Source: Candidatus Poribacteria bacterium (GTDB lineage Bacteria > Poribacteria > WGA-4E > WGA-3G). Taken from it: a stretch of 64,000 nucleotides of DNA. Made by a program: the position numbers and the translations under genes. The stretch lies in the NCBI GenBank assembly GCA_028821605.1, contig JAPPFM010000055.1, positions 186,001-250,000 of the forward strand, given 5' to 3'. The first letter of the stretch is position 1. The number at the start of each line of letters is the position of its first letter. The notes beneath the pieces are model-generated. The model worked only from the letters and a program-made list of their open reading frames with translations. It was not told the DNA's origin and ran no database searches. Below, one piece after another: positions 16,877-33,791 of this stretch.

Positions 16877-17986
16877 TCACTCCCCCAATTCTGACTCAGC
16901 AGCGATATCTTCTTCAAGCGACTTGATATTTGCTAAGACCGTTGGGTGCGGTTCAATTTCATAGACTTTCCGATACACTTCCAACGCAGCCTCTTTATCA
17001 CCGAGGAAACTCGCATAAATTTCCCCCATCCGTTCCCACGCGCGAACCTCTTGAGGATCAAGTTCCACGATGCGTTCGTAGACTTGCAGGGCATCCGCAT
17101 ATTGACGCGTTTCGATATCCTCTCGCTCAAGTGCAGACGCGCGTGCAAAAAGCAGTCCGACGAGATCGGTAATGACTTCATCCATCCCAGGACGCTTTTC
17201 AAGTGCTTGTTCCAATACGAGAATTGCCTCCGATTCAAGTCGGGTAACCTCAGTAAAATCTTCAATCGTGTATTCTCGGTCTAAAAACCGATATTTCTGA
17301 AGCATTTTGGAGTATGTTCTGGATAGCTGCAGACGTGCAAGGATACCGATAGGTGCTTTTTCGGAGAGCACGACTCGCAACTCAGGATCGTTTTCAATCG
17401 CTTTTTTGTAGTGTTCCTCTGCCTGCTCAAACTGCTTACTTCCCTGATAGAGGACACCAAGGAGATAGTGTGCTTCGGCATTGCTCGGATCTTTTTTAAC
17501 GACTGCGAGGAACTCCTCTGCGGCTTCGCTGAGTAAATAGTCATCGCGAAGCAGCTTTCCACGTAAAAGACGGACATCAGGATGGTCAGGTTGAACGCGT
17601 GATGCGTGTTCCAAACGCGCCTTTGCATCTTTCAGCCAACCACTTTGTGAATAAATTGCAGCGATGCGAAGATTGGCATGCAAACGGATTTCTGCCCCTG
17701 TTTTCGAGGCTCCATTTATCAAGTGCTTTTGTGCTTCCGCATCATCTTCTAATGCTTGCAATGCCTGCCAATAAAAAAGCGCGGCATCAACGAGATCCTG
17801 TTGGGCAAAGAGTGTGTCTGCTTTCTCAACAAAGCCACCTACCTGCGACACCGGTGGTGATCCGGATTCCGCACTGCCCCGCTGGATATAGAAAAACGCA
17901 AGCACAATAAAACCGATGACTACAAGTACTTCCGCATAAAAAAGCCAACTGCGTAAGGAAAATAGGGATTTCGTGTTAAATGACAT
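16877..17986 (-). CDS. membrane-anchored TPR protein
   Basis: The 369-residue protein has an N-terminal membrane anchor (FYAEVLVVIGFIVLAFFYIQ, about residues 16-35), then tetratricopeptide repeats with the usual W/L-G-Y-A-F-A-P spacing, for example AEAHYLLGVLYQGSKQFEQA and AWERMGEIYASFLGDKEAAL. TPR proteins act as scaffolds for protein complexes. The start is the ATG at 17986, preceded by AAGGGAG; an earlier in-frame start has no ribosome site. It lies 73 bases after dsbD on the same strand, so both may belong to one operon. Confidence 0.85.
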   Translation of the reverse strand: MSFNTKSLFSLRSWLFYAEVLVVIGFIVLAFFYIQRGSAESGSPPVSQVGGFVEKADTLFAQQDLVDAALFYWQALQALEDDAEAQKHLINGASKTGAEIRLHANLRIAAIYSQSGWLKDAKARLEHASRVQPDHPDVRLLRGKLLRDDYLLSEAAEEFLAVVKKDPSNAEAHYLLGVLYQGSKQFEQAEEHYKKAIENDPELRVVLSEKAPIGILARLQLSRTYSKMLQKYRFLDREYTIEDFTEVTRLESEAILVLEQALEKRPGMDEVITDLVGLLFARASALEREDIETRQYADALQVYERIVELDPQEVRAWERMGEIYASFLGDKEAALEVYRKVYEIEPHPTVLANIKSLEEDIAAESELGE

Positions 17987-18059
17987 GTTCACTCCCTTGT
18001 CTTGATATAGTGCACAAGACGATGGAACATAAGTTTTAATCCACAATCAAAACGACGCG

Positions 18060-19910
18060 CTACTGTGCGCGACTCTCAATTTCGTCAAGAATACCGAGCA
18101 TCTTCTCCGCATCAACGAAACCGGTGAACCGCTTAAGAGTAACACCATCGGCATTCAAGAAAATGACAACTGGCAATCCCGGTATCTGGTACTTCTCGGT
18201 GAGTGCTTTCGTCGTTTCGGAGGTGCGCGTGAAATCGAGTTTGACATTGACATAATCAGCGAGTCTCGCGGCAACAGCAGGATCTGCATACGTCAGATGG
18301 TCCAGCTCCTTACAAGCAGCACACCAAGAGGCATAAAAATCGAGCATTACGAGTTTGTCCTCCCGCTTGGCGATTTCAAATCCCTCGGCTTCGTCGTACA
18401 CCCAATCAAGATGGGGTCCAGCAGGCTGCTGGATACCACCGACAAACATATAAGCACCGAGCACCGCTAACAAAAGACCGCATGCCTTTCGGAATTTCAT
18501 CTGTGGAGAGATACCACTGAAACGTTCCGTCAACTTGCCAAGCCACACGCCAATCAGCACTAAACCACCCGCAATAGCGAAGAACGGTAGCGAATTTTGC
18601 AGGAAACTCTGCAACAGTGGGAACACGTCTTTAAGAAAGTAGAGTGCCATCGTAATAATCGCAATGCCGAAGATGTTCTCCAAAACATACATCCATCCGC
18701 CTGAACGCGGCAGCGCAGAGAGTAACCCGGAGAACGTGCCAATACCGATAAAAAGTAACCCCATTCCGAGAGCATAAGTGAACATGAGCCAGAATCCGAG
18801 GAAGAGGCTGCCCGTCGTTGCAATATAAGTTAGGACGACCGCTAATGCTGGTCCTGTGCAAGGTGCCGCAATCACACCTGCGACTGTTCCCATAGCGAAT
18901 GCCCCGGCAAATCCGGTCCCTCCAACGGTATTGAGACGATTTTGCACCGAGTATGGCAATCGAATCTCAAAAACACCGAACATAGACAATCCCAAACTCA
19001 CAAGAATTAGACTGATGAAGCCAACAACCCACGGGTTCGCCATTATTTGACCGAAAACTGCGCCTGTCGATGCAACCGCCACACCTAAAATCGAATAGGT
19101 AACGACGATGCCAAGGACATACACAATAGAGAGCAGGAAAGATTTGAGAAAACCAGCAGATTCATTCGCACCGAAAACGGAAACAGTAATTGGTATGAGC
19201 GGATAAACACAGGGGGTTAAACTGGTCAAGATACCGCCAGCAAACACGAGCAAGAATGCGAGCCAGACCTGTCCACCAGAAAGCGCACGCGCAAGGGTCC
19301 CTTCGTCGCTATCGGCATCCGGTAGTGCTCCAAATTGAATATTGGCAAAAACCGCTTCATTAACACGCTGAACGGTGTCCTCTATACCAACAACTTCAAT
19401 AGGAACCTCAAAGGCGAGAACTTCAGGTAACAGACACTGCTCCTCGTTACACGCTTGATATCTCAGTTCCAAATCCATCGTGATGGGACCAATTGGCGCG
19501 TCCTGACTTAAATCCGCTTGGATACCGATGGTGATGGTATCGTGATAGACTGGTGCCGCTCCAATGGAGCCAAGTTCCAATACTTCGCCGACGGGATATA
19601 TCATCTCACCGACAGTGAGATGTGGCGTATCGGGAAAGATTACCTCGGTCGCGATAAGCCCTTCGCCAGCAGGATTCGCGTTGACATGCCACCCTTCGTC
19701 AATCTCAACGACGACAGCCATTTGAAATTGACTTCCGGGTTGCACTTTGTCGATTGAGAGGTATCCTTTTGCAGTAAGTTTCTCAGTAGGCAGTTTTTCA
19801 TCAAGCCCAAAATCTGCGAACTGCGCTTGGACATGAACTGGGAAAATTATTGTAACAAGTGTCAACATGGACCAGAACAGATATTTATGAAATTTGCTGG
19901 TTTTCAACAT
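18060..19910 (-). CDS. dsbD: thiol:disulfide interchange protein DsbD
   Basis: The 616-residue protein follows DsbD architecture. A signal peptide (LFWSMLTLVTIIFPVHVQAQ) leads into the periplasmic alpha domain (WHVNANPAGEG; two cysteines in ACNEEQC), then the eight-helix transmembrane core with cysteines in LTPCVYPLIPI and APCTGPALAVV, and a C-terminal thioredoxin domain with active site WCAACKELDH. It carries electrons from cytoplasmic thioredoxin across the membrane to reduce periplasmic disulfides. All redox cysteines are present, so it should be active. The neighbouring TPR and PorX-like genes share its strand. Confidence 0.94.
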   Translation of the reverse strand: MLKTSKFHKYLFWSMLTLVTIIFPVHVQAQFADFGLDEKLPTEKLTAKGYLSIDKVQPGSQFQMAVVVEIDEGWHVNANPAGEGLIATEVIFPDTPHLTVGEMIYPVGEVLELGSIGAAPVYHDTITIGIQADLSQDAPIGPITMDLELRYQACNEEQCLLPEVLAFEVPIEVVGIEDTVQRVNEAVFANIQFGALPDADSDEGTLARALSGGQVWLAFLLVFAGGILTSLTPCVYPLIPITVSVFGANESAGFLKSFLLSIVYVLGIVVTYSILGVAVASTGAVFGQIMANPWVVGFISLILVSLGLSMFGVFEIRLPYSVQNRLNTVGGTGFAGAFAMGTVAGVIAAPCTGPALAVVLTYIATTGSLFLGFWLMFTYALGMGLLFIGIGTFSGLLSALPRSGGWMYVLENIFGIAIITMALYFLKDVFPLLQSFLQNSLPFFAIAGGLVLIGVWLGKLTERFSGISPQMKFRKACGLLLAVLGAYMFVGGIQQPAGPHLDWVYDEAEGFEIAKREDKLVMLDFYASWCAACKELDHLTYADPAVAARLADYVNVKLDFTRTSETTKALTEKYQIPGLPVVIFLNADGVTLKRFTGFVDAEKMLGILDEIESRAQ

Positions 19911-19927: not shown

Positions 19928-21583
19928 CTACCTCGGTTCAAGCACCACGCAGGGCAGGATCATCTCTTCAAGTGAAATGCCGCCGTGTTGGAAACTGCCT
20001 TGAAATATTTCCTTATACATATTGAACTGCCTGTCATAAACGAAATAGTAATCCTCTTTGGCGAGAATATAACTTTTGTCAGCTTCTTCACCGGGTAAAC
20101 GGTATGTGACAGGATCCTTTATGAGCCATCCGGCTTCAGGTGCACATGAAATGCCTTTCCCCTCTTTAAACCGAAGCCCCGTCGTGAGTTCAGCTTGGCT
20201 CGAAACTTTCGCTGCATTTTGACAGAGCAGCGAACCGTGGTCAGACGTTAAGATGACGGTCATACCACGGTCAGCAGCGATTCTGAAGACCTTATACAGA
20301 TGCGAATGCTGAAACCACGCCTGTACGAGTGCCCGGAATGCGGTTTCATCGGGAACAAGCTGTTGAAGTAAATCCACCTCATGCCGTGTGTGTGTCAACA
20401 TATCCAGAAAATCAACAACGAGTGCTGTCAAACTAATTCGATCTGTCACACTTAACCAATGTAGGTATTGCATCTCCCCTCGAGTATCAAAAATTTTGAA
20501 GTAATGCAGGGGTGGCTTCAGAGGTATCCCATGCCTCTCAAATTGTAAGCGCATGAGTGCTTTTTCATAACGATTAATACTTGTGTGTGCTTGATCGGGT
20601 TCCGCGTACAGATCAGGGTGCCTTTCTGCGAATTCAAGCGGAAACAACCCACTAAAAATAGCGTTCCGGGCATAACGGGTTGCTGTGGGCAAGATAGAAT
20701 AGTAGTAATCAGTCGTTATGTTGAAAAGCGGGTAGAGCAACGGCTCAATTTTCAGCCAATGATCCAACCGCATACAATCCATAACAACAAACAGTACCTG
20801 TTTTCCTGCCTGAATTTCAGGGATAACATATTTGTAAACGACATCTACAGATAAAGTGGGGGACGCTTCGCCCACAAGCCAGTTGTGATAGTTGTCTTGG
20901 ATATAGTTAGCGAACGCGGCATTTGCTTCTCGTTTCTCTATTTCATGGATAGCCTTAAGTTCGTCAACATTATCAAGTGTATCGAGCCGCAGGTCCCATT
21001 CCACAAGACGCAAGTAGGTATCAATCCACGATTCCCAATCATCGGCAGCGTCCCAGTCCTGCGTCGTCTCACCTAAAACTTGTGTTCTACTAAAACTCCG
21101 ACTGTACGCTTGCGGCGTATATGCTTCACGGATTGCTCGCTTCTCAAGCAGGAAGGTGAGTGATGTTGATAACTGCTTGTGCGAAGTTTCCTCCTGATCA
21201 CTTGTTGAGATTACAAAAATATCGTCAACATCATAAAGGCTTCCTTGCTCCATTACCTCCCGCCCACTCTCGTGCGTTAGGAGAATAATAGGGATATGCG
21301 CGTTCACACTCCGAACACGCGAAAGCAGATTCTCCTTTTGCGTCGGGGCATCATAATTTAATAAAACTGCGTGATATGTCTCTTCTTGGAGTAAAGAAAC
21401 GCCTTCAGCACCAGTGTCCACTAAGGAAACATTGTATCCTTCAAACTCCAAGAAGCGAATGTAGGGTTTGGGTGTTATATACGTCTGTTGCTCGTTATAT
21501 ACGTTTTCAAGCTGAGCGTCAGATTGCTCTACGTCAGCTGTCTGATTGTTAATCCACAGAATCCTCCATTTTTTCTCTTGCAT
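19928..21583 (-). CDS. PorX-like protein: degenerate receiver domain plus PglZ domain
   Basis: The 551-residue protein aligns by eye with PorX, the receiver-PglZ protein that controls type IX secretion in Bacteroidetes. The C-terminal half keeps the PglZ landmarks: FVVMDCMRLDHW, SILPTATRYARNAIFSGL (with the nucleophile Thr) and ILTSDHGS. The receiver has lost its phosphorylation residues: the acidic pair is Asn12-Asn13 (ILWINNQ), the phospho-acceptor position is Asn76 (VLLNYDAP) and the lysine before KP is replaced (FVISTSD); an insert of roughly 20 residues follows the first strand. The start at 21583 has an AAGGGGG site. It probably acts without phosphorylation. No PorY or T9SS gene is in the window. 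Confidence 0.82.
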   Translation of the reverse strand: MQEKKWRILWINNQTADVEQSDAQLENVYNEQQTYITPKPYIRFLEFEGYNVSLVDTGAEGVSLLQEETYHAVLLNYDAPTQKENLLSRVRSVNAHIPIILLTHESGREVMEQGSLYDVDDIFVISTSDQEETSHKQLSTSLTFLLEKRAIREAYTPQAYSRSFSRTQVLGETTQDWDAADDWESWIDTYLRLVEWDLRLDTLDNVDELKAIHEIEKREANAAFANYIQDNYHNWLVGEASPTLSVDVVYKYVIPEIQAGKQVLFVVMDCMRLDHWLKIEPLLYPLFNITTDYYYSILPTATRYARNAIFSGLFPLEFAERHPDLYAEPDQAHTSINRYEKALMRLQFERHGIPLKPPLHYFKIFDTRGEMQYLHWLSVTDRISLTALVVDFLDMLTHTRHEVDLLQQLVPDETAFRALVQAWFQHSHLYKVFRIAADRGMTVILTSDHGSLLCQNAAKVSSQAELTTGLRFKEGKGISCAPEAGWLIKDPVTYRLPGEEADKSYILAKEDYYFVYDRQFNMYKEIFQGSFQHGGISLEEMILPCVVLEPR

Positions 21584-21770
21584 GTTATACCCCCTTTTTG
21601 GCGCAGCTTGCAAGCCAAAACTTGCTTGACAACAGCACAACATAGGCTCACAAAGTGTATCCTACATCTTAATAAAACGGGCAATCCATCAGCTGCCCGA
21701 TGTTTCGGGGTGAGCATTTTTCAATAAAAAGCAGAAAACACGACGTGCTGCTCTGCTCAACAGAACAAAA

Positions 21771-23105
21771 CTAAATACTCGAAATAAAACGTCCTGGATT
21801 CAACAAACCATCCGGATCGAATTTGGCTTTAACCTGTTTCATTAAACTGAGGGTGCCTCCGACGGAACCCCAAACGTCAATATGTCGTTTGAGTTCAGGC
21901 GGTGCGGTTTCTATTATAAGGTTCCCCTGCGCCATCATTGCCGATTGACGCAGCTGTGTGAGTGCATCCGCAAGTTGTTGAAAATCTGTGTCGGACGTTA
22001 CAGGAACGGTGAGATATAACACACCACTCCCAAGCAACGCCATCATCTGGACATCACGCGCCCAATCCGCGTCCCCAACTTGCGCAACAAATTCAGCGAC
22101 ATCGGTACGTTTCAGATTCAATTTAGCAATTACGACCTCAATATCTCTGTTGTCAGCCGGGAATTCCTGAATAGCCTCCTGAAGCTGTTGTTGCGATTCA
22201 TCTTCTACAATAGTCACACCGATCGCGCCATTTTGTTCCATAACTTCTTGGCAGTGTGTCAATTGCCACGCTACGGTCTCGGTATCGCCACCGAACCCAA
22301 CTGTCAGCACCGGTTCATTTTTAGCTGCAGTGGCATCGCCAAGCCTTGGATCTGCGTTAGCAAATAGATTTACAAACAGCGGCAATGTCTGTGAACCTAC
22401 AATGCTTAAGCCTGTTTCAGCAGCGTCTTGAACACTTCGGAAGTCTGCTGTGAGGATTGCTTGTCGTGCCGGTATTGGGGACAATTTGAGAGCCACTTCA
22501 GTAATAATACCGAGCGTTCCAAAAGCACCGATATAAAGCTTGTTGAGATCATAACCTGCGACATTTTTCACCACTTTTCCACCACTTTTGACAACGGTGC
22601 CGTTTGCGTGAACAACCTTCAACCCCAAGATCTGATTTCGAGCAGTCCCATGTCGTAAGCGGAAAGAACCGCTCACATTTGTTGCAACAATTCCACCGAT
22701 GGTGCTTCGGGCTGCATAAGGTGGATTCAATGAGAGAAACTGCCGATATTTCGCTAATTCAGTTTGTAGAACGGCTAAAGGAATACCCGCCTCCACAGTT
22801 ACAGTTAAATCCGCCGGTTCATATTCGATGACGCTATTGAGTCGTGTTGTCGCGAGTACCACATCTACCTTTTGTGGTAGATTCCCGATGCCAAGTTTCG
22901 TGCCAGCACCTGCAGGCATAACCGATAAGTCCTGTTTTGCCGCAAATCGGAGAACATTTTGTATCTCTTGGATGGATCCCGGCAAGACGACTGCTTTCGG
23001 AACATACCCATCAAAAGTGTAAGCGGGAATCTGTGCCTCTGGCAGGATCCCAGACTCTCCTACTATATGTTTAAGCTCATCGTGCAAGGCACGCGAATTC
23101 TCCAT
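21771..23105 (-). CDS. glcE: glycolate oxidase subunit GlcE-like FAD-binding protein
   Basis: This FAD-linked oxidase of the PCMH type (about 444 residues) has PAGAGTKLGIGN in the first FAD-binding part, ARSTIGGIVATNVSG and GGKVVKNVAGYDLNKLY, which distinguish GlcE from GlcD. The C-terminus FDPDGLLNPGRF is the family ending. With GlcD it should oxidise glycolate to glyoxylate. The start at 23105 is preferred over a GTG 21 bases upstream, though the ribosome site (AAGAGAAG) is modest. It is last in a minus-strand cluster glcD, two small genes, glcE. GlcF, the iron-sulfur subunit, is missing here. Confidence 0.88.
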   Translation of the reverse strand: MENSRALHDELKHIVGESGILPEAQIPAYTFDGYVPKAVVLPGSIQEIQNVLRFAAKQDLSVMPAGAGTKLGIGNLPQKVDVVLATTRLNSVIEYEPADLTVTVEAGIPLAVLQTELAKYRQFLSLNPPYAARSTIGGIVATNVSGSFRLRHGTARNQILGLKVVHANGTVVKSGGKVVKNVAGYDLNKLYIGAFGTLGIITEVALKLSPIPARQAILTADFRSVQDAAETGLSIVGSQTLPLFVNLFANADPRLGDATAAKNEPVLTVGFGGDTETVAWQLTHCQEVMEQNGAIGVTIVEDESQQQLQEAIQEFPADNRDIEVVIAKLNLKRTDVAEFVAQVGDADWARDVQMMALLGSGVLYLTVPVTSDTDFQQLADALTQLRQSAMMAQGNLIIETAPPELKRHIDVWGSVGGTLSLMKQVKAKFDPDGLLNPGRFISSI

Positions 23106-23226
23106 ATACTTCTCTTTTTTCCTCACAATGATAAAAAGATTTTCTGTCTGCGGCTTTTGAAACGCTATCTAAAAACCTACTTGTACGTCAGTAAGATTGA
23201 CTTGCTGCTAAATATGCCTTAGAGGG

Positions 23227-23798: not shown

Positions 23799-25232
23799 TT
23801 AGAAGTTCCTCATTGACTCGGGTTGTAAACCCAGTTTCGCGTAAGATTCGGCAGTTGGGAAAATCTTCCCTGGATTACAGAGTCCTGTTGGATTAAAAAT
23901 TTCCTTAACAGTCGCCATCACCTGTAAATCTGCCGGACTGAAAATGAGAGGCATATAATCCATCTTTTCAACACCGATACCGTGCTCTCCTGTGATTGTA
24001 CCACCGACCTCAGCACATACAGACAGAATCTCCATATTCACATGCTCCACCCGTTCGCACTGATCCGCGTCGCGCTCGTTAAACAGAACAATGGGATGGA
24101 TATTGCCATCACCGGCGTGGAACACATTTGCGATCGGGATCTGATATTTCTCAGAGATTTCAGAGATGCGCCGTAAAACCTTCGGCAGTGTCGTCCTTGG
24201 AACAACACCATCTTGCGTGATATAGTTGGGTGCGAGCCGTCCAAATGAACCAAACGCGCTTTTCCGCGCTTTCCAGAGTTGCTGTCGCTCCGCCTCATCT
24301 TTGGCATAATCGACCTTCCGGGCGTTGTGCTGTTTGAAGATTTCCAGAATCTGATCTGTTTGGTTCTGCATTCCTACCTCAATACCATCAAGTTCGACAA
24401 TCAAAATAGCATCGGCATCAAGTGGAAAACCGAATTGAAAGGCTTCCTCCAAAGCACGGATAACAAGACTGTCCATCATTTCGAGTGCAGCGGGAATAAT
24501 ACCTTCACCGATAATCGTTGAGACAGCGTTTGAGGCATCATCCATCGTTTCAAAGACGGCAAGTGCTGTCTGGTATGCTTGCGGATTTCGGGTGAGACGG
24601 ACGATCGCCTTTGTCACGATTCCAAATGTGCCTTCGGAACCGATCAACACGCCACGCAAATCGTAGCCGGGCGTTTCCTCAACAGCTCCCCCGAATTCTA
24701 CGATTTCACCATCTGGCAAAACAACTTCTAAGCCAAGTACATGGTCAGACGTAACACCGTATTTTAGGGTGTGCGGTCCCCCCGAATTTTCGGCGATATT
24801 TCCGCCTATCGTACACGCCTTCTGGCTTGACGGGTCCGGTGCGTAGTGATAACCTCGGCTTTGCACTGCCTGCGTCAACAAGAGATTAACGACCCCAGGC
24901 TCAACCACTGCCCGTTCGTTTTCAAGATCTACTTCTAAAATGCGATCCATCCGATTGAGCGCAATGATAATTCCACCTTGGACAGAGAGCATACCCCCAC
25001 TTAAGCCGGTGCCACCGCCGCGTGCAATAAACGGTGTCTGGTATTTATTCGCTAACTTTACGATATCCGACACCTGCTGCGCCGTATCTGCGAAGACGAC
25101 AATATCTGGCATCGCCTTAAAAGAGGGGGCAGCATCACATTCGTATACCGAGAGTGCAGTTGCATCCGTTAGAACATTTCGAGCACCGAGGAGCGCAGTA
25201 AGATCAGCAATGAGTTGTTCTTTTTGGTCCAT
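23799..25232 (-). CDS. glcD: glycolate oxidase subunit GlcD
   Basis: The 477-residue FAD-linked oxidase contains the PCMH FAD-binding loop FIARGGGTGLSGGM, the IGGNIAENSGGPHTLKYGVT segment, the GSEGTFGIVTKA strand and the C-terminal cap with VFHAGDGNIHP and GTITGEHGIGVEK, all diagnostic for GlcD and D-lactate dehydrogenases. It oxidises glycolate or a similar 2-hydroxy acid. The ATG at 25232 gives the full-length family protein. It heads the four-gene minus-strand cluster. Confidence 0.93.
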   Translation of the reverse strand: MDQKEQLIADLTALLGARNVLTDATALSVYECDAAPSFKAMPDIVVFADTAQQVSDIVKLANKYQTPFIARGGGTGLSGGMLSVQGGIIIALNRMDRILEVDLENERAVVEPGVVNLLLTQAVQSRGYHYAPDPSSQKACTIGGNIAENSGGPHTLKYGVTSDHVLGLEVVLPDGEIVEFGGAVEETPGYDLRGVLIGSEGTFGIVTKAIVRLTRNPQAYQTALAVFETMDDASNAVSTIIGEGIIPAALEMMDSLVIRALEEAFQFGFPLDADAILIVELDGIEVGMQNQTDQILEIFKQHNARKVDYAKDEAERQQLWKARKSAFGSFGRLAPNYITQDGVVPRTTLPKVLRRISEISEKYQIPIANVFHAGDGNIHPIVLFNERDADQCERVEHVNMEILSVCAEVGGTITGEHGIGVEKMDYMPLIFSPADLQVMATVKEIFNPTGLCNPGKIFPTAESYAKLGLQPESMRNF

Positions 25233-25437: not shown

Positions 25438-26226
25438 ATGCGAAAATTGATATTGATTTTAGGAATGGCTTGTGTGATCACTTGGACACTACCACAGCTC
25501 TGTTCTGCCGAAATCGACCCCGAAACAGCCGTTGGTGTATGGCTCTTTGATGAAGGCGCGGGTAAAACAACCAAAGACGCTTCAGGAAAAGGGCACGACG
25601 GCACAATCAACGGTGCCAAGTGGAAAGACGGAAAAATTGGAAAAGCACTTGAGTTTGATGGGGCTCAGTGGGTGTCCATTGACTCGACCCCCGAACTACA
25701 ACTCGGTGAAGAACTCACGATGATGGCATGGTTTTTTGCCACAGATATTTCCACTTGGAGGCAACTCATTTCCAAAAGCGACGAATACCTCTTACGGATC
25801 GATCCGCCACAGGAAGGCAATCGGATGTCTGCGTTTGTTAAACCCGGTGGAAGTTGGGAACCGCGAGCCTCCGCGAATGTTCCTGATGAAAAAAAATGGA
25901 TCCACTTCGCAGCAACTTACGATATCAATGAGAAGGCTGAGCAACTCGTCGTGTACGTAAATGGTAAAAAAGCTGGGGTGAGCACACGTCCTGGAAAAAC
26001 CGCTGTAACCGGTAATCCTGTTGAGATTGGTAAATGGGGTGGTGGTTCATACTTCGTCGGTATTATCGACGAAGCTGCCATTTTCAACGCTGTTCTCACT
26101 GAAGACGATCTCACAATTATCGTGGAACATGGATTAGCAAAGGCACTTGGTGGGTTAGACGTTGAACCGACAAGCAAATTGGCAACAACATGGGCAACCC
26201 TTAAAGCAAGCACTAACTTACAATAA
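25438..26226 (+). CDS. secreted LamG/concanavalin-like protein with an EPxSKLATTW tail
   Basis: The 262-residue protein has a signal peptide (LILILGMACVITWTLPQLCS-A) then a laminin-G/concanavalin-like jelly roll, seen in VGVWLFDEGAGKTTKDASGK, GHDGTINGAKW, IHFAATYD and VYVNGKKAG; these proteins bind carbohydrate or protein outside the cell. The C-terminus ends in VEPTSKLATTWATLKAS, almost identical to that of the next gene. AGGAG sits 8 bases before the ATG. The tail may be a sorting or anchoring signal particular to this lineage. Confidence 0.85.
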   Translation: MRKLILILGMACVITWTLPQLCSAEIDPETAVGVWLFDEGAGKTTKDASGKGHDGTINGAKWKDGKIGKALEFDGAQWVSIDSTPELQLGEELTMMAWFFATDISTWRQLISKSDEYLLRIDPPQEGNRMSAFVKPGGSWEPRASANVPDEKKWIHFAATYDINEKAEQLVVYVNGKKAGVSTRPGKTAVTGNPVEIGKWGGGSYFVGIIDEAAIFNAVLTEDDLTIIVEHGLAKALGGLDVEPTSKLATTWATLKASTNLQ

Positions 26227-26311: not shown

Positions 26312-27046
26312 ATGCGAATCACGATTCTTGTATGCGGATTCCTGATGTGTCTCATCGGGACAGGTTCTGCCGGTGTATGGACGGATCCGTTTGATGGCAA
26401 CGAACTCGTTGAGGAATGGGAATTCCGCGATTATCGCGACAAAGTTACAACGTTTGAAGTCAAAGATGGCTTCCTACAGATGACCAATCCGAAGGGCGGA
26501 TGGGGACATACCACGCCTGACAAACCGATGGTTGAACGGGAAATTCCGAAAAGTGCAGCGAAAAACATAACGGTGAGCGGGATATTTACCACTGAACCCG
26601 AGAAACCAGCGGATTCATGGATTGGTATTTTCCTTTACAGTGATGACGACTTGAACTACGCCTGTTTGCTATTTGGCGGTGAAGCCAACCAACCGCAAAA
26701 AACACTCATCGGTAGTATGGTTGAAGCCAATTGGCAAGACAAGGGACACTTCCAAACCGGCTTCGATGTTCCTATTCACCTCAAGATTGTCAAAGAAGGT
26801 GACCTGTTCTCTGGATACTACCGCGAAAGTGAAAAAGATGACTGGACGCTGTCCGGGAACAAAACGTGGAACCACAAGTTTGACGTAGAGCGCGTCGGTG
26901 TCGGTTTCATGAACAGTTGGGGCGGTCAAACAGTTACATTTATGGTCGATACACTCTCCATTGAAGGCGAAGGGATTGAACCTTTGTCAGTTGAGCCATA
27001 TAGTAAATTAGCGACAACATGGGGGACCCTCAAAGCGATTCAATAA
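26312..27046 (+). CDS. secreted jelly-roll protein with the same C-terminal tail
   Basis: The 244-residue protein begins with a signal peptide (ITILVCGFLMCLIGTGSAG). The body (TDPFDGNELVEEWEFRDYR; DDLNYACLLFGGE; VGVGFMNSWGGQTVTFMVD) resembles DUF1349/3-keto-disaccharide-hydrolase-like concanavalin folds. It ends SVEPYSKLATTWGTLKAIQ, matching the tail of the LamG protein just upstream although the domains differ. AAGGAGG lies 7 bases before the ATG. Probably exported; whether it is an enzyme or a binding protein is open. Confidence 0.8.
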   Translation: MRITILVCGFLMCLIGTGSAGVWTDPFDGNELVEEWEFRDYRDKVTTFEVKDGFLQMTNPKGGWGHTTPDKPMVEREIPKSAAKNITVSGIFTTEPEKPADSWIGIFLYSDDDLNYACLLFGGEANQPQKTLIGSMVEANWQDKGHFQTGFDVPIHLKIVKEGDLFSGYYRESEKDDWTLSGNKTWNHKFDVERVGVGFMNSWGGQTVTFMVDTLSIEGEGIEPLSVEPYSKLATTWGTLKAIQ

Positions 27047-27213: not shown

Positions 27214-30200
27214 ATGTCCATCCCCAAAATATCCGTAAATAACCCGGTCTTAGCAAACATGTTAATGATCATAATCATCGCATTCGGGGTGTATGCATGG
27301 ATAAACCTACCACGGGAACTCACACCAGAAATCGCCTTACAGAGTGCAACGGTGACAACACTCTATCCGGGAGCCTCTCCAGAAGAAGTTGAAAAACTTG
27401 TCACCGCCCCCATTGAAGACGCTATTGAGGAAAACGTTAGCAAAATCAATTTGTTGTTTTCTACTTCTTCTGAAGGCAGATCCGTCATCTCCGTCGACTT
27501 TGAAGAAATGAGCGATCGGGATTACGACAAGGAAATTGAAAACCTCCGCACTGCTGTAGAGCAGGTGAATGAGCTCCCAGAAGAGATTTTAGAGGAGCCG
27601 CAAGTTGAAGAACTTGATGTTTCCTCCGGCTTCCCCATGCTAACGATTGCTGTAGGCGGGAAAATTTCGGAATCCCAGATGCGCGACATCGCCGAAAATC
27701 TCAAAGACGAAATCTTGGACATCAAAAACATCGCGTCCGTCCGGATAGCAGGTCTCCGCGAAAGAGAAATATGGATTGAGGTGAATCCGGATCGGTTGAA
27801 AGCCTATCAGATTCCGATTGCGATGGTTATTACTGCAGTCGGTGCAAGCAATTTGAACCTCCCAGCGGGTACCATGGAACTCGGCAATACAGAATTCATG
27901 GTCCGGACGATGGGTGAATTCGCCACTCCAGACACGATCGGCGAGACCATCATCTCCGTTCAACCGACAGGTACACCGCTCCGACTGAAAGATGTCGCCA
28001 CTGTTTCGGACACCTACGAAGAGGCGAGAACCCTATCCCGGATTAATGCGGAACCCTCTATTAGTTTGAGCGTACAAAAAAAGACCGACGGAAACACGAT
28101 CGCGTTAGTTGCCCAACTTCGAGAATTAGTTGAAAAACGGAGAGCCGATCTCCCTGAAGGTGCCGAATTGACAGCTGTCAACGATTACTCGGTTATTCTC
28201 AAGGAGCGGTTGGGGATTCTTGAAACAAATGCGTTTTTCGGTTTAGTCCTCGTCGTATTCATGCTCTTCCTCTTTATCGGTTGGCGGAATGCGGTGTTCG
28301 CAGCACTCGGCATACCGGTGGCGTTCATGGCAACCTTCTGGTTTATGTCCGTGGGGGGCTATACACTCAGCGGTGTCTCCCTGTTCGGACTGATTTTAGT
28401 CGTCGGGATTGTTGTCGACGATGCTATTGTTGTCATAGAGAACATTTATCGACACATTGAGAGAGGGGCACCCCCGAAAGTTGCTGCTATTCGTGGTGCG
28501 GAAGAAGTCGGCTGGCCCGTCTTAGCCGCCAGCTTAACGACTATTTGTGCATTCGGTCCATTGATGTTTATGTCCGGTGTTCCTGGACAGTTTATGCGAG
28601 TCGTTCCAATCATGGCGATCCTCGTGCTGATCGCCTCTCTCTTTGAAGTGTTCGTGATTTTACCGGCGCACGTTTCCGAGTGGGGAAAAGCGAGAACGCA
28701 GACAGGACGGAGTAGACTTGAAAATCTCCGCACCCGATCTCGGGATGCCTTTGCCCTAAGTGCTTACATCACCGGCTTTTTCGCATGGTTCGGCCTGTTT
28801 TTTGACTTTATCAGGAGCCGATATGTTAGAATCTTGAAGATAACGATTCGACATCGATATGCCTTTGTAGGAAGTGTTTTCTTTATCGGTTTGATTGCGT
28901 GCGTGGGCGCATTTTTAGTCCTCGATAGGGAGCTCTTCCCCGGTGAAGATTTCCCACAATTCTATGTCAAAGCCGAAATGCCGCCTTCCTATGGGATGCA
29001 AGAAACAACAGAAGTGGTAGCACAACTCGAAGCAGCTGCCAAAACACTTCCATCAAGTGAAGTCGCTGCTATCGTTAGTAACATTGGGTTACACACGCCG
29101 ACTGGGGGTTTGATGGAAGGCGTTACCTATGGATCCAATTTCGGTGAGGTTATTGTTGAACTCACACCAAAACAGGAACGTACTCGAGGTGTAGATGACA
29201 TCATCGCAGAACTGCGGACGAAAACCACAACCATTAGTGGAATTGAGGAACTGAACTTCATCACACAGGAAGGCGGACCGCCGCAAGGGGAAGATGTTGA
29301 AGTCAAGGTAAAAGGTGCCAGATTTGAACAACTGACGGCACTGTCTGATACCCTTAAAGCATCACTCTCGCAGATGGACGGTGTCTACGACATTCGAGAT
29401 GACTTTCGCACGGGTAAATCCGAACTTCGCATCTACCTGAAACCGGAAAAGGCACATCAGTACGGATTAACTACATTCCAGATTGCGCAAACAGTGCGCA
29501 CCGCTATTGAGGGTGCCAAAGCGACAACCTATCGCGAAGCAGACGAGGCGATTGATGTCATCGTCAAATACGAGGAAGATACGCTCGACAACCTCGCTGC
29601 ACTGAATAACTTGTTGATTGCAACACCCACAGGTGCTATCGTCCCGCTCAAGGATGTCGCCGACATTACAGGAGAGAAAGGATATTCCGATATCCGCCGA
29701 TTTGACGGCGAACGGGCAATTACAGTTTATGCTTCTGTAGATAGGGCAAAAACGACACCCTTCGATGCAACTCAAACACTCATCAGTAAATTTGCTGATG
29801 TCGAATCCCTGTATCCCGGATACCAACTCGATTTTAGAGGGCTTTTCGATGAGATTGTAGAATCCTTTTCTGAGTTGTGGAAGTTGTTCATCGTCGGGCT
29901 GTTGCTCATCTATGTCGTATTGGGTGCACAATTCAAATCCTTTATACAACCGATTATCATTATGCTCGCTGTTCCGTTCGGAATGATAGGGGCGATGGTT
30001 GGGTTACTCCTTGCCAATGCGACGCTTAGTATGGTTGCGATGTTTGGTATCGTTGCACTCTCCGGTATTGTGGTGAATGATTCAATTGTGCTTATCGACT
30101 TTATCAACAAATACCGCGAACGCGGTTACAATAAGTGGTATGCCATCCTGAAAGGCGGGTATGTCCGATTACGCCCGATTGTTCTCACTTCACTCACAAC

Positions 30201-30441
30201 AATTATTGGACTCATGCCGATGGCAATCGGTCTTGGCGGTAAATCGCCTATATGGATGCCAATGGCGTATACTATCATCTTCGGGCTTGCGCTCGCAACC
30301 ACGATGACGCTGTTTGTAATGCCTGCGCTTTATGCCATCACAACAGACATACGAGGTCTCGTCCTGAGAAATCCAGAGGAACGTTTCCAAACTGTTTCAG
30401 CCGAGGAACTGTTGGGTGTTGCGGTCCCCGCTGATGACTAA
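27214..30441 (+). CDS. RND-family efflux pump (first of two tandem copies)
   Basis: This 1075-residue inner-membrane proton-driven transporter has the RND layout: N-terminal helix (NPVLANMLMIIIIAFG), porter domain, helices 2-6 with GIVVDDAIVVIENIYRHIE (the essential Asp pair of the proton relay), a second porter domain, and helices 7-12. In helix 10 the relay lysine seen in AcrB is replaced (VVNDSIVLIDFIN), as in several related subfamilies. Such pumps normally work with a membrane-fusion protein and an outer-membrane channel; neither is adjacent. AAGGAG lies 11 bases before the ATG. Substrates unknown. Confidence 0.93.
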   Translation: MSIPKISVNNPVLANMLMIIIIAFGVYAWINLPRELTPEIALQSATVTTLYPGASPEEVEKLVTAPIEDAIEENVSKINLLFSTSSEGRSVISVDFEEMSDRDYDKEIENLRTAVEQVNELPEEILEEPQVEELDVSSGFPMLTIAVGGKISESQMRDIAENLKDEILDIKNIASVRIAGLREREIWIEVNPDRLKAYQIPIAMVITAVGASNLNLPAGTMELGNTEFMVRTMGEFATPDTIGETIISVQPTGTPLRLKDVATVSDTYEEARTLSRINAEPSISLSVQKKTDGNTIALVAQLRELVEKRRADLPEGAELTAVNDYSVILKERLGILETNAFFGLVLVVFMLFLFIGWRNAVFAALGIPVAFMATFWFMSVGGYTLSGVSLFGLILVVGIVVDDAIVVIENIYRHIERGAPPKVAAIRGAEEVGWPVLAASLTTICAFGPLMFMSGVPGQFMRVVPIMAILVLIASLFEVFVILPAHVSEWGKARTQTGRSRLENLRTRSRDAFALSAYITGFFAWFGLFFDFIRSRYVRILKITIRHRYAFVGSVFFIGLIACVGAFLVLDRELFPGEDFPQFYVKAEMPPSYGMQETTEVVAQLEAAAKTLPSSEVAAIVSNIGLHTPTGGLMEGVTYGSNFGEVIVELTPKQERTRGVDDIIAELRTKTTTISGIEELNFITQEGGPPQGEDVEVKVKGARFEQLTALSDTLKASLSQMDGVYDIRDDFRTGKSELRIYLKPEKAHQYGLTTFQIAQTVRTAIEGAKATTYREADEAIDVIVKYEEDTLDNLAALNNLLIATPTGAIVPLKDVADITGEKGYSDIRRFDGERAITVYASVDRAKTTPFDATQTLISKFADVESLYPGYQLDFRGLFDEIVESFSELWKLFIVGLLLIYVVLGAQFKSFIQPIIIMLAVPFGMIGAMVGLLLANATLSMVAMFGIVALSGIVVNDSIVLIDFINKYRERGYNKWYAILKGGYVRLRPIVLTSLTTIIGLMPMAIGLGGKSPIWMPMAYTIIFGLALATTMTLFVMPALYAITTDIRGLVLRNPEERFQTVSAEELLGVAVPADD

Positions 30442-30560: not shown

Positions 30561-33500
30561 ATGTCCATCCCCAAGATATCCGTAAACAACCCTGTTTTAG
30601 CGAACATGTTAATGATTATAATCATCGTTTTTGGGTTGTACGCATGGATAAACCTACCGCGGGAACTCACCCCAGAAGTCTCAGTCCAGAGCGCAGTTGT
30701 GACAACACTCTATCCGGGAGCCTCTCCAGAAGAAGTTGAAAAACTTGTCACTGCTCCTATTGAAGACGCAATTGAGGAGAACGTCAACAAAGTTGACCTA
30801 TTGTTTTCTACCTCTTCAGAGGGGCGTTCTGTTATCTTTGTCGATTTTGAGGAGATAAGCGACCGGGATTTTGACAAGGAACTTGAAAGCCTACGCACCA
30901 CTGTTGAGCAGGTAAATGAGCTGCCAGAGGAGATTTTAGATGATCCGAGGGTCCAAGAATTTGATATATCATTTGGTTTTCCTATTTTGACGATTGTTGT
31001 AGGTGGAAATATTGCGGAAACGCAGATGCGGGATATTGCTGAAAATCTCAAAGATGAAATTTCGGACATCAAAAACATCGCTTCTGTCCGAATGGCAGGT
31101 CTCCGTGAGAGGGAAATATGGATTGAGGTGAACCCGGATCGATTGAAGGCATATCGACTCCCAATTTCAGCGGTCATTACCGCGCTGGGAACAAACAACT
31201 TGAATCTCCCCGCCGGCACAATGGAACTCGGAGGCACAGAATTCATGATCCGAACGATGGGAGAATTCACCGATTTGGACACTATTGGCGAAACTCCCAT
31301 CACTGTTCAGCCGATAGGTACGCTTCTCCGTCTGAAAGATGTTGCGACGATTTCTGACACCTACGAGGAGGTGCGAACGCTATCGCGAATTAATGGACAA
31401 CCTTCGATTAGCCTGAGTGTGCAAAAGAAGACTGAGGGAAACACAATTGCATTAGTTACTAAACTTCGAGAATTAGTCGACAATCGGAGAACGGATCTCC
31501 CTGAAGGTGCTGAGTTGACGGTTGTTAATGACTATTCCGTTGTTCTCAAAGAACGATTGGGAATTCTTGAAACAAATGCCTTTTTCGGTTTGGTGCTTGT
31601 TGTGCTAATGCTCCTTCTCTTTATTGGATGGCGGAATGCCCTATTTGCGGCACTCGGCATACCGGTGGCGTTCATGGCAACTTTTTGGTTTATGTCCATT
31701 GCTGGTTATACACTCAGCGGTGTCTCACTGTTTGGGCTCATTTTAGTCGTCGGGATTGTTGTTGATGATGCTATTGTCGTCATAGAGAACATCTACCGGC
31801 ATATTGAAACAGGCGCATCCCCGAAAGTTGCCGCCATTCGTGGTGCGGAAGAAGTCGGTTGGCCCGTTGTAGCAGCAAGCTTGACGACCATCTGTGCTTT
31901 TGGACCGTTGATGTTTATGTCTGGTGTTACTGGACAGTTTATGCGGATCGTGCCGGTTATGGCGATTCTGGTGTTGATAGCATCTCTTTTTGAGGTCTTC
32001 GTAATTTTACCAGCACACGTCGCTGAATGGGGAAAAACCAAAATTCGCACAGGACGCAGCAGGCTTGAAAATCTCCGAACCGGGTCCCCGAGGGGTTTCA
32101 CCTTCGGTGTCCGCATTGTCAGCTTTTTCGTGTGGTTTGCTATGTTTTTTGAATTAATTCGGAACCGATATGTTAGAATCCTGAAAATAACCATTCGACA
32201 CCGATATGCGTTTGTAGGGAGTGTCCTCTTCTTCGGATTGGTTGCATGCATCGGGGCATTTTTTGTTCTTGACAGGGAACTCTTCCCTGGTGAAGAGTTC
32301 CCACAATTTTATGTCAAAGCTGAGATGCCACCTTCCTACGGAATACAGGAAACAACAGAAGTAATTGTCCAAATTGAAGAGATGGCTAAAGGACTTCCCT
32401 CAACTGAAGTTGACGCGGTCGTCAGCAATGTCGGTTTACATACATTTATGTCAGGTTTGATAAGAAGAAGTGTTACCTACGGCTCAAATTTAGGAGAGGT
32501 AATCGTCGAGCTCACACCAAAGCAAAAACGCACCCGTGGTGTGGATGAGATCATCGCAGAACTACGGACAAAAACCACCACAATTAGTGGAATTGAGCGG
32601 CTGAGTTTCGTCACACAGGACGGGGGGGCACCACAAGTAGCAGATGTGAGCACGAAAATAAAAGGACCGAGATTTGAGAATCTGACTGAACTCGCTGGCG
32701 TTCTTAAGACAGCCCTATCTCAGATAGATGGCGTTTACGACATCCAAGATGATTTCAGCATTGGAAAATCTGAACTGCGCATCTACTTAAATCAGGAGAA
32801 AGCGCGTCAATATGGATTAACCACGTTTCAGGTCGCACAAACCGTTCAAACGGGTATTGAGGGTGCCAAGGCAACCACCTATCGAGAAGCAGACGAGGCG
32901 ATTGATGTTATCGTCAAATATGAGGAAGACACGCTTAGGAATCTCGCAGCACTTAGCAATCTCTTGGTTGCGACACCCACTGGTGCCGCTGTTCCCCTTA
33001 AGGACGTTGCAGATATAAGGGAAGAAAAGGGGTACGCAGATATCCATCGCTTCGATGGGGAACGAGCAATCACAGTTTATGCATCCGTAGATAGAGAAAA
33101 GACGACTGCCTTTAAAGTGAATCAATCGCTCATCAGCGCATTTGCTGATATAGAATCTTTGTATCCGGGATACCAACTCGATTTTCGAGGGGTTTTTGAT
33201 GAAATTACAGAATCCTTTTCTGAGTTGTGGAAGTTGTTCATTGTTGGGCTGTTGCTCATCTATGTCGTATTGGGTGCACAATTCAAATCCTTTATACAAC
33301 CGATTATCATTTTGTTTGCTGTTCCATTTGGTATGATCGGTGCGATGGTAGGACTCCTACTTTCCCATGCGACCCTTAGCATCGTCGCTATGTTTGGTAT
33401 CGTTGCACTCGCTGGGATTGTGGTGAACGATTCGATCGTTCTTATCGACTTCATTAACAAGTACCGAGAAAAGGGGTATAACAAGTGGTACGCTATTCTG

Positions 33501-33791
33501 AAAGGCAGTAGTCTCCGATTGCGTCCAATCGTTCTCACCACGGTGACGACGATTTTCGGACTCATTCCGATGGCAATCGGGTTAGGTGGCAAGTCGCCTA
33601 TATGGATGCCGATGGCGTATACGATCATTTTCGGACTCGCCGTTGCAACATTGATGACGCTGTTCGTGATGCCGGGATTATATGCCATCACAACGGACCT
33701 TCGTAGACTCATCTTGAAAGACCCGGAAGGACGTTTCCGTTCCGTTTCAGAAGAAGAATTATTAGGTGCCTCAGTTACAGCAGACGATTAG
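30561..33791 (+). CDS. RND-family efflux pump (second tandem copy)
   Basis: A 1076-residue paralogue of the preceding gene, nearly the same from the first residue (MSIPKISVNNPVLANM) to the end (EELLGASVTADD versus EELLGVAVPADD). Helix 4 keeps VVDDAIVVIENIYRH and helix 10 has VVNDSIVLIDFIN. Differences concentrate in the porter domains, for instance the loop LHTFMSGLIRRSVTYGSN against LHTPTGGLMEGVTYGSN, so the two may differ in substrate or form a heteromeric pump as MdtB/MdtC do. It has no strong ribosome site and lies after a hairpin, so it may be expressed separately. No fusion protein is adjacent. Confidence 0.93.
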   Translation: MSIPKISVNNPVLANMLMIIIIVFGLYAWINLPRELTPEVSVQSAVVTTLYPGASPEEVEKLVTAPIEDAIEENVNKVDLLFSTSSEGRSVIFVDFEEISDRDFDKELESLRTTVEQVNELPEEILDDPRVQEFDISFGFPILTIVVGGNIAETQMRDIAENLKDEISDIKNIASVRMAGLREREIWIEVNPDRLKAYRLPISAVITALGTNNLNLPAGTMELGGTEFMIRTMGEFTDLDTIGETPITVQPIGTLLRLKDVATISDTYEEVRTLSRINGQPSISLSVQKKTEGNTIALVTKLRELVDNRRTDLPEGAELTVVNDYSVVLKERLGILETNAFFGLVLVVLMLLLFIGWRNALFAALGIPVAFMATFWFMSIAGYTLSGVSLFGLILVVGIVVDDAIVVIENIYRHIETGASPKVAAIRGAEEVGWPVVAASLTTICAFGPLMFMSGVTGQFMRIVPVMAILVLIASLFEVFVILPAHVAEWGKTKIRTGRSRLENLRTGSPRGFTFGVRIVSFFVWFAMFFELIRNRYVRILKITIRHRYAFVGSVLFFGLVACIGAFFVLDRELFPGEEFPQFYVKAEMPPSYGIQETTEVIVQIEEMAKGLPSTEVDAVVSNVGLHTFMSGLIRRSVTYGSNLGEVIVELTPKQKRTRGVDEIIAELRTKTTTISGIERLSFVTQDGGAPQVADVSTKIKGPRFENLTELAGVLKTALSQIDGVYDIQDDFSIGKSELRIYLNQEKARQYGLTTFQVAQTVQTGIEGAKATTYREADEAIDVIVKYEEDTLRNLAALSNLLVATPTGAAVPLKDVADIREEKGYADIHRFDGERAITVYASVDREKTTAFKVNQSLISAFADIESLYPGYQLDFRGVFDEITESFSELWKLFIVGLLLIYVVLGAQFKSFIQPIIILFAVPFGMIGAMVGLLLSHATLSIVAMFGIVALAGIVVNDSIVLIDFINKYREKGYNKWYAILKGSSLRLRPIVLTTVTTIFGLIPMAIGLGGKSPIWMPMAYTIIFGLAVATLMTLFVMPGLYAITTDLRRLILKDPEGRFRSVSEEELLGASVTADD

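Follow-up and report, generated by a model that had tools for sequence, protein, structure and literature searches.

The gene studied here, porX-B, lies on the minus strand of a 64,000-nucleotide stretch (the window) of contig JAPPFM010000055.1, from a Candidatus Poribacteria assembly (GCA_028821605.1). Its open reading frame runs from position 21583 down to 19928, stop codon included, and encodes a PorX-family pseudo-receiver/PglZ protein of 551 residues, paralogue 'B'; an alternative upstream in-frame ATG at 21643 is possible. Comparison with profile models revealed that the protein matches the NCBIfam PorX equivalog model NF052313 with 441.8 bits (cut-off 300), bearing out the original prediction of a PorX-type protein outside the Bacteroidetes. 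Pfam PglZ was matched with 58.5 bits and Response_reg (PF00072-type) with 25.2 bits, below its gathering score of 30.2. A BREX PglZ identity was rejected, given 82.2 bits against a cut-off of 250 for BREX-3. Named relatives (52–96% identity) were Candidatus Poribacteria metagenome-assembled genomes (MAGs) throughout, and the matches in the PDB were PorX structures (E-values as low as 1e-88 by sequence).

The protein displays the receiver, helical bundle and PglZ architecture of PorX: a pseudo-receiver domain (residues 5–147; 21143–21571, minus), a helical linker region (residues 148–258; 20810–21142, minus) and a PglZ phosphodiesterase domain (residues 259–551; 19931–20809, minus). In an AlphaFold2 model (mean pLDDT 79.5) the receiver forms a (beta-alpha)5 fold; confidence is low in a lineage-specific insertion in the beta1-alpha1 loop (residues 17–36; 21476–21535, minus) and in the nucleophile loop (residues 299–308). 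Foldseek ranked PorX structures at the top for this model (E = 1e-47; TM-score 0.68, normalized by query length), and the superposition had an rmsd of about 9 Å over the whole chain, suggesting that the domains of the single-chain model are arranged differently from those in the PorX structures.

The gene sits in a conserved cluster in which a GlcD-like FAD-linked oxidase (23799–25232) and a GlcE-like FAD-linked oxidase (21771–23126) lie upstream of porX-B, followed 17 bases downstream by a DsbD-like thiol:disulfide interchange protein with a thioredoxin domain (18060–19910) and then by a TPR protein (16877–18046), all on the minus strand. No kinase was present beside porX-B among the neighboring genes examined, no BREX genes were found in the cluster, and no gene of the type IX secretion system (T9SS) adjoins porX-B. 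Elsewhere in the window, two adjacent and very similar long open reading frames (27214–30441 and 30561–33791, both plus) have the look of RND-type transporters when their translations are read by eye, and likely represent a tandem duplication.

To place the receiver residues, we aligned PorX-B with 39 canonical paralogues of the phylum and with PorX of Porphyromonas gingivalis (PG) and Flavobacterium johnsoniae (FJ). Four of the five catalytic receiver residues are lost in PorX-B. Asn12-Asn13 (21545–21550, minus) replaces the metal-binding Asp-Asp pair and Asn76 (21356–21358, minus) replaces the phospho-acceptor (Asp54 FJ), both as originally predicted, and Ile125-Ser126 (21206–21211, minus) replaces Lys-Pro (Lys104-Pro105 FJ). 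The original prediction had every conserved receiver residue changed and the Lys of the KP pair turned into Ser; the loss of the Lys holds, but it is Ile125 that aligns with the Lys and Ser126 with the Pro, and Thr103 (21275–21277, minus; Thr82 FJ) is retained as the sole receiver residue. In the model Asn12 and Asn13 directly follow beta-1, Asn76 terminates beta-3 and Ile125 directly follows beta-5, which is where the phosphorylation pocket normally is. Alignment and model thus agree in placing Asn76, and not an ordinary aspartate, at the phosphorylation site; the predicted loss stands, and a misalignment that hides a normal acceptor was rejected. The domain is a pseudo-receiver, i.e., a receiver fold in which one or more of the five catalytic residues are missing, and with Asn12-Asn13, Asn76 and Ile125 it does not qualify as a phosphorylatable receiver. 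The acceptor Asp and the Lys are both absent from all 41 B proteins of the window's family, and since these come from independent MAGs we rejected sequencing error or chance as the source of the losses.

The original prediction had missed a second PorX gene. We found that the same genome (G000) has two PorX genes: the window gene, and a canonical copy, PorX-A (C12:35188-36735; 583.8 bits), which has all five receiver residues, is about 44% identical to PorX-B over the aligned part, and is flanked by a membrane histidine kinase, which it follows, and by RNase G. A search of the phylum, with copies assigned to A or B by bit score, revealed PorX above the cut-off in 81 of 85 genomes; of the 59 genomes of the window's family, this classification assigned a B copy to 56 and an A copy to 56, and the missing copies belong to draft assemblies. 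A second PorX copy, B0, 51–54% identical to PorX-B, is present in ten genomes from two other families; at these loci a NUDIX hydrolase gene lies next to the porX start or overlaps it. A further family contributes one genome with an early-branching second PorX (L086:4559-6118, plus), which has a complete receiver and one in-frame TGA; the TGA may be a sequencing error or the mark of a broken gene. In a maximum-likelihood tree, built with a quick method and two Bacteroidota outgroups, L086, B0 and B grouped together to the exclusion of the A copies (SH-aLRT support 100%). B is hence not a one-to-one orthologue of the canonical PorX-A of the same genomes, and an old duplication within Poribacteria is the best explanation for its origin. 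A recent duplication in the window's own genome was rejected, as B is spread over three families with the early branch in a fourth, and a horizontal gain from another phylum is not favored, as A and B together separate from the two Bacteroidota outgroups.

By the residues kept in these sequences, the receiver of the B branch decayed by staged loss. L086 retains five of the five residues and all ten B0 proteins retain four, seven having lost the acceptor and three the second metal Asp. B proteins mostly retain two (32/41); three are kept in 3/41 and one in 6/41, the window's PorX-B included. The second metal Asp is lost in 38 of the 41 B proteins. Asn12 of PorX-B is recent, since a 96%-identical neighbor (L066) still has Asp12 in an Asp12-Asn13 pair.

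We also observed that residue 78 (21350–21352, minus), two positions past the lost acceptor, is Asp or Glu in 37 of the 41 B proteins and Asn in the other four, whereas PorX-A mostly has Val or Met there. Such an acidic residue could mean that PorX-B is still phosphorylated at a shifted site, e.g., Asp78. Its offset of two residues from the acceptor site, the four proteins with Asn, the loss of the Lys in every B protein and of the second metal Asp in nearly all of them speak against this, and we consider it very unlikely.

The PglZ domain presents the opposite picture. The zinc ligands described for F. johnsoniae PorX (Asp237, Thr271, Asp360, His364, Asp414, His415 and His499; PMC11320123) align with Asp269 (20777–20779), Thr302 (20678–20680), which is also the catalytic nucleophile (Thr272 PG), Asp394 and His398 (both within 20390–20404), Asp448-His449 (20237–20242) and His533 (19985–19987) of PorX-B, all on the minus strand. 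These seven ligands, nucleophile included, show no variation among the A, B0 and B sequences (41/41 B), so the PglZ landmarks are intact, as had been predicted. Clade-fixed changes of B occur in this domain too: at position 303, beside the nucleophile, B has Arg or His whereas A mostly has Leu or Met, and on this ground the substrate of PorX-B may differ from that of PorX. The residues S384 and S388 (FJ) of the APS dimer correspond to Ala418 and Ala422 in PorX-B, which counts against a simple transfer of properties from PorX; S384 varies among canonical A copies as well. Since the equivalog model, the architecture and the zinc site all agree with PorX while the phosphorylatable receiver and the one-to-one orthology do not, we name the window gene a PorX-family pseudo-receiver paralogue, not PorX proper.

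Next, we compared selective constraint between the domains using median pairwise dN/dS (Nei-Gojobori; pairs with dS of 0.1–1.2). In B the medians were 0.243 for the receiver, 0.151 for the helical part and 0.066 for PglZ; in A they were 0.054, 0.075 and 0.045, respectively. The B receiver is relaxed yet still constrained, and PglZ is maintained. A gene decaying toward loss would be in keeping with a receiver dN/dS about four times that of A and with the in-frame TGA of the distant early-branch copy L086. However, a dN/dS of 0.24 in the receiver against 0.07 in PglZ points to relaxation of one domain and not of the gene; all zinc ligands are kept, the frames are open in all 41 family members and the gene order of the cluster is kept across three families. 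We therefore rejected pseudogene decay, which we regard as improbable in the extreme.

Constraint within the B receiver is uneven. The loops surrounding the former phosphorylation pocket, where the insertions sit, are the least conserved parts (identity 0.23–0.44), while beta-1, beta-3, beta-4 and alpha-1 remain conserved, alpha-1 more so than in the A copies of the same family. A conserved core of strands, insertions around the pocket and the new acidic residue at position 78 are features that a ligand sensor switching the phosphodiesterase could have, and ligand-binding pseudo-receivers exist (PMC12632262). Poor conservation of the pocket loops themselves is unlike what one shared ligand site would leave, and we find a ligand-sensing role doubtful.

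With regard to function, mutants of F. johnsoniae PorX provide the closest comparison. The D54A substitution abolished acetyl-phosphate-induced dimerization while phosphodiesterase activity and zinc-induced dimerization were kept, and both properties were also kept by PorX without its receiver (PMC11320123). D54A also abolishes GldL binding (PMC10951265). An acceptor-less PorX can therefore be an active enzyme that has lost its phosphorylation-controlled contacts. Double mutation of S384 and S388 abolished zinc-induced dimerization; for the phosphodiesterase activity of this mutant the text and the summary table of that study disagree (PMC11320123).

We consider it rather probable that PorX-B is a zinc phosphodiesterase without kinase control, derived from an old poribacterial duplicate, whose pseudo-receiver serves as a structural or contact module. 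Having no acceptor, no Lys and a broken metal pair, PorX-B would be independent of phosphorylation; this is what had been predicted, it is supported at the level of sequence, and it would agree with the behavior of the D54A mutants (PMC11320123). In the proposed mechanism the receiver would have retained its fold and lost the chemistry of phosphotransfer, and PglZ would have retained a complete active site with two zinc ions and a Thr nucleophile. The protein is predicted to hydrolyze a nucleotide or an oligonucleotide in a zinc-dependent manner, and it would be activated by zinc and dimerization, not by a histidine kinase. The pseudo-receiver would act as a structural module or as one for protein or ligand contacts, and control would be exerted through expression or zinc. 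What we infer here about catalysis, substrate, control by zinc and dimerization, and the role of the pseudo-receiver is the most likely reading of the data. PorX-B is thus probably an enzyme released from the command of a kinase.

An alternative is that PorX-B is mainly a protein partner, either of PorX-A in an intertwined dimer or of a T9SS component, with enzyme activity secondary. The co-occurrence of A and B in almost every genome of the family, the intertwined nature of PorX dimers (PMC11320123), the ability of pseudo-receivers to act by protein contacts (PMC12632262) and the well-conserved alpha-1 are consistent with such a role. On the other hand, a pure partner would have no need of a PglZ active site kept in every family member under strong constraint, and the published binding to GldL required Asp54 (PMC10951265) and no GldL was detected in the own genome. 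We think a mainly partner role unlikely, and place it first among the alternatives, ahead of ligand sensing, then shifted phosphorylation and lastly gene decay.

The original prediction also noted that no T9SS gene lies nearby, which holds for the neighbors of porX-B; the absence that it implied for the genome as a whole does not. The genome search that it had proposed, covering T9SS genes and C-terminal tails, returned 79 type A sorting tails (TIGR04183) over the cut-off, six PorV-family matches over the cut-off, three PorU-like proteins (245–292 bits, below the cut-off of 420) and a SprA-like protein of 2245 residues (L150:9400-16137, minus; G000 contig C2). The latter matched TIGR04189 with 151.3 bits (E = 2e-44; cut-off 200) and PF14349 above its gathering score, and gave no PDB match in a single-sequence search. 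By homology, these components point to a T9SS in the organism, the SprA-like and PorU-like proteins scoring below the full-length cut-offs. A TnpB/IS605-OrfB-like gene (L150:16356-17675, plus) adjoins the SprA-like gene. The GldL/GldM motor, the published contact of PorX, was not recovered: neither TIGR03513 nor PF12081 had a match in the own genome, where divergent forms are possible. Across poribacterial genomes SprA-like proteins were found in 82 of 83 and PorV-family proteins in all 83. In one genome of the phylum (L139; G006 contig C30) SprA exceeds the cut-off, with 508 bits together with its neighbors, a far stronger match than in all others, which may reflect divergence or MAG contamination.

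Kamke et al. (2014; PMC3909097) reported T9SS sorting tails in Poribacteria with the structural genes missing. Contrary to that single-cell genome report, our matches suggest that Poribacteria have a divergent T9SS, and the SprA-like and PorV-family proteins bear on the gap of tails without structural genes. The identification is by homology, and a paper later than Kamke et al. (2014) may have reported such a system.

In addition, two secreted-looking proteins encoded in the window (25438–26226 and 26312–27046, both plus) end in a VxPxxKLATTWGxLK tail. A back-translated pattern gave 36 exact matches in the own genome and none for the reversed control. In 20 sampled stretches, 16 of 16 KLATTWG matches lay 5–10 residues before the stop in frames of 232–312 residues, most of which start in a signal-peptide-like manner. 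No NCBIfam model matched the tail; it could act as a tag for sorting or processing, distinct from the TIGR04183 tails.

When compared with PorX of P. gingivalis and F. johnsoniae (PDB 7pv7, 7pva, 7pvk, 8ted, 8tef, 8p6f), PorX-B shares the domain order, the seven zinc ligands and the fold, but it lacks a phosphorylatable receiver and has Ala in place of the APS-dimer serines and Arg beside the nucleophile; moreover, it is not the sole PorX of its genome and has no adjacent kinase. PorX-A has the architecture and zinc ligands in common with PorX-B, and differs in its five receiver residues and in its location between the membrane histidine kinase and RNase G, as opposed to that of PorX-B between the GlcD/GlcE-like oxidases and the DsbD-TPR pair. 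BREX PglZ proteins share the PglZ domain, and PorX-B matched BREX models and a BREX PglZ structure more weakly, scoring far below the BREX cut-offs. Among bacterial pseudo-receivers and atypical response regulators (PMC12632262), PorX-B differs in its output, a PglZ phosphodiesterase. The text of that review makes no mention of PglZ, and a search of largely open-access literature for pseudo-receivers together with PglZ found no paper.

On the strength of sequence comparison, PorX-B is a PorX-type, receiver-dead PorX paralogue kept in nearly all genomes of one sponge-associated Poribacteria family. We tentatively propose that a PorX duplicate became, by staged loss of its switch, a kinase-independent phosphodiesterase with a changed substrate, beside a kinase-linked PorX, in a phylum with its own divergent T9SS without recognizable GldLM; this full scenario is possible, somewhat short of an even chance. 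The review of pseudo-receivers leaves open how they are switched (PMC12632262). In the PorX-B branch the loss of a receiver, with five residues kept at the start and one or two at the end, can be traced within one gene family, with PorX-A kept in the same genomes as a control and with a predicted output that is a measurable enzyme. PorX-B would thereby test whether the PorX phosphodiesterase has a role apart from phosphorylation-controlled regulation of the T9SS.
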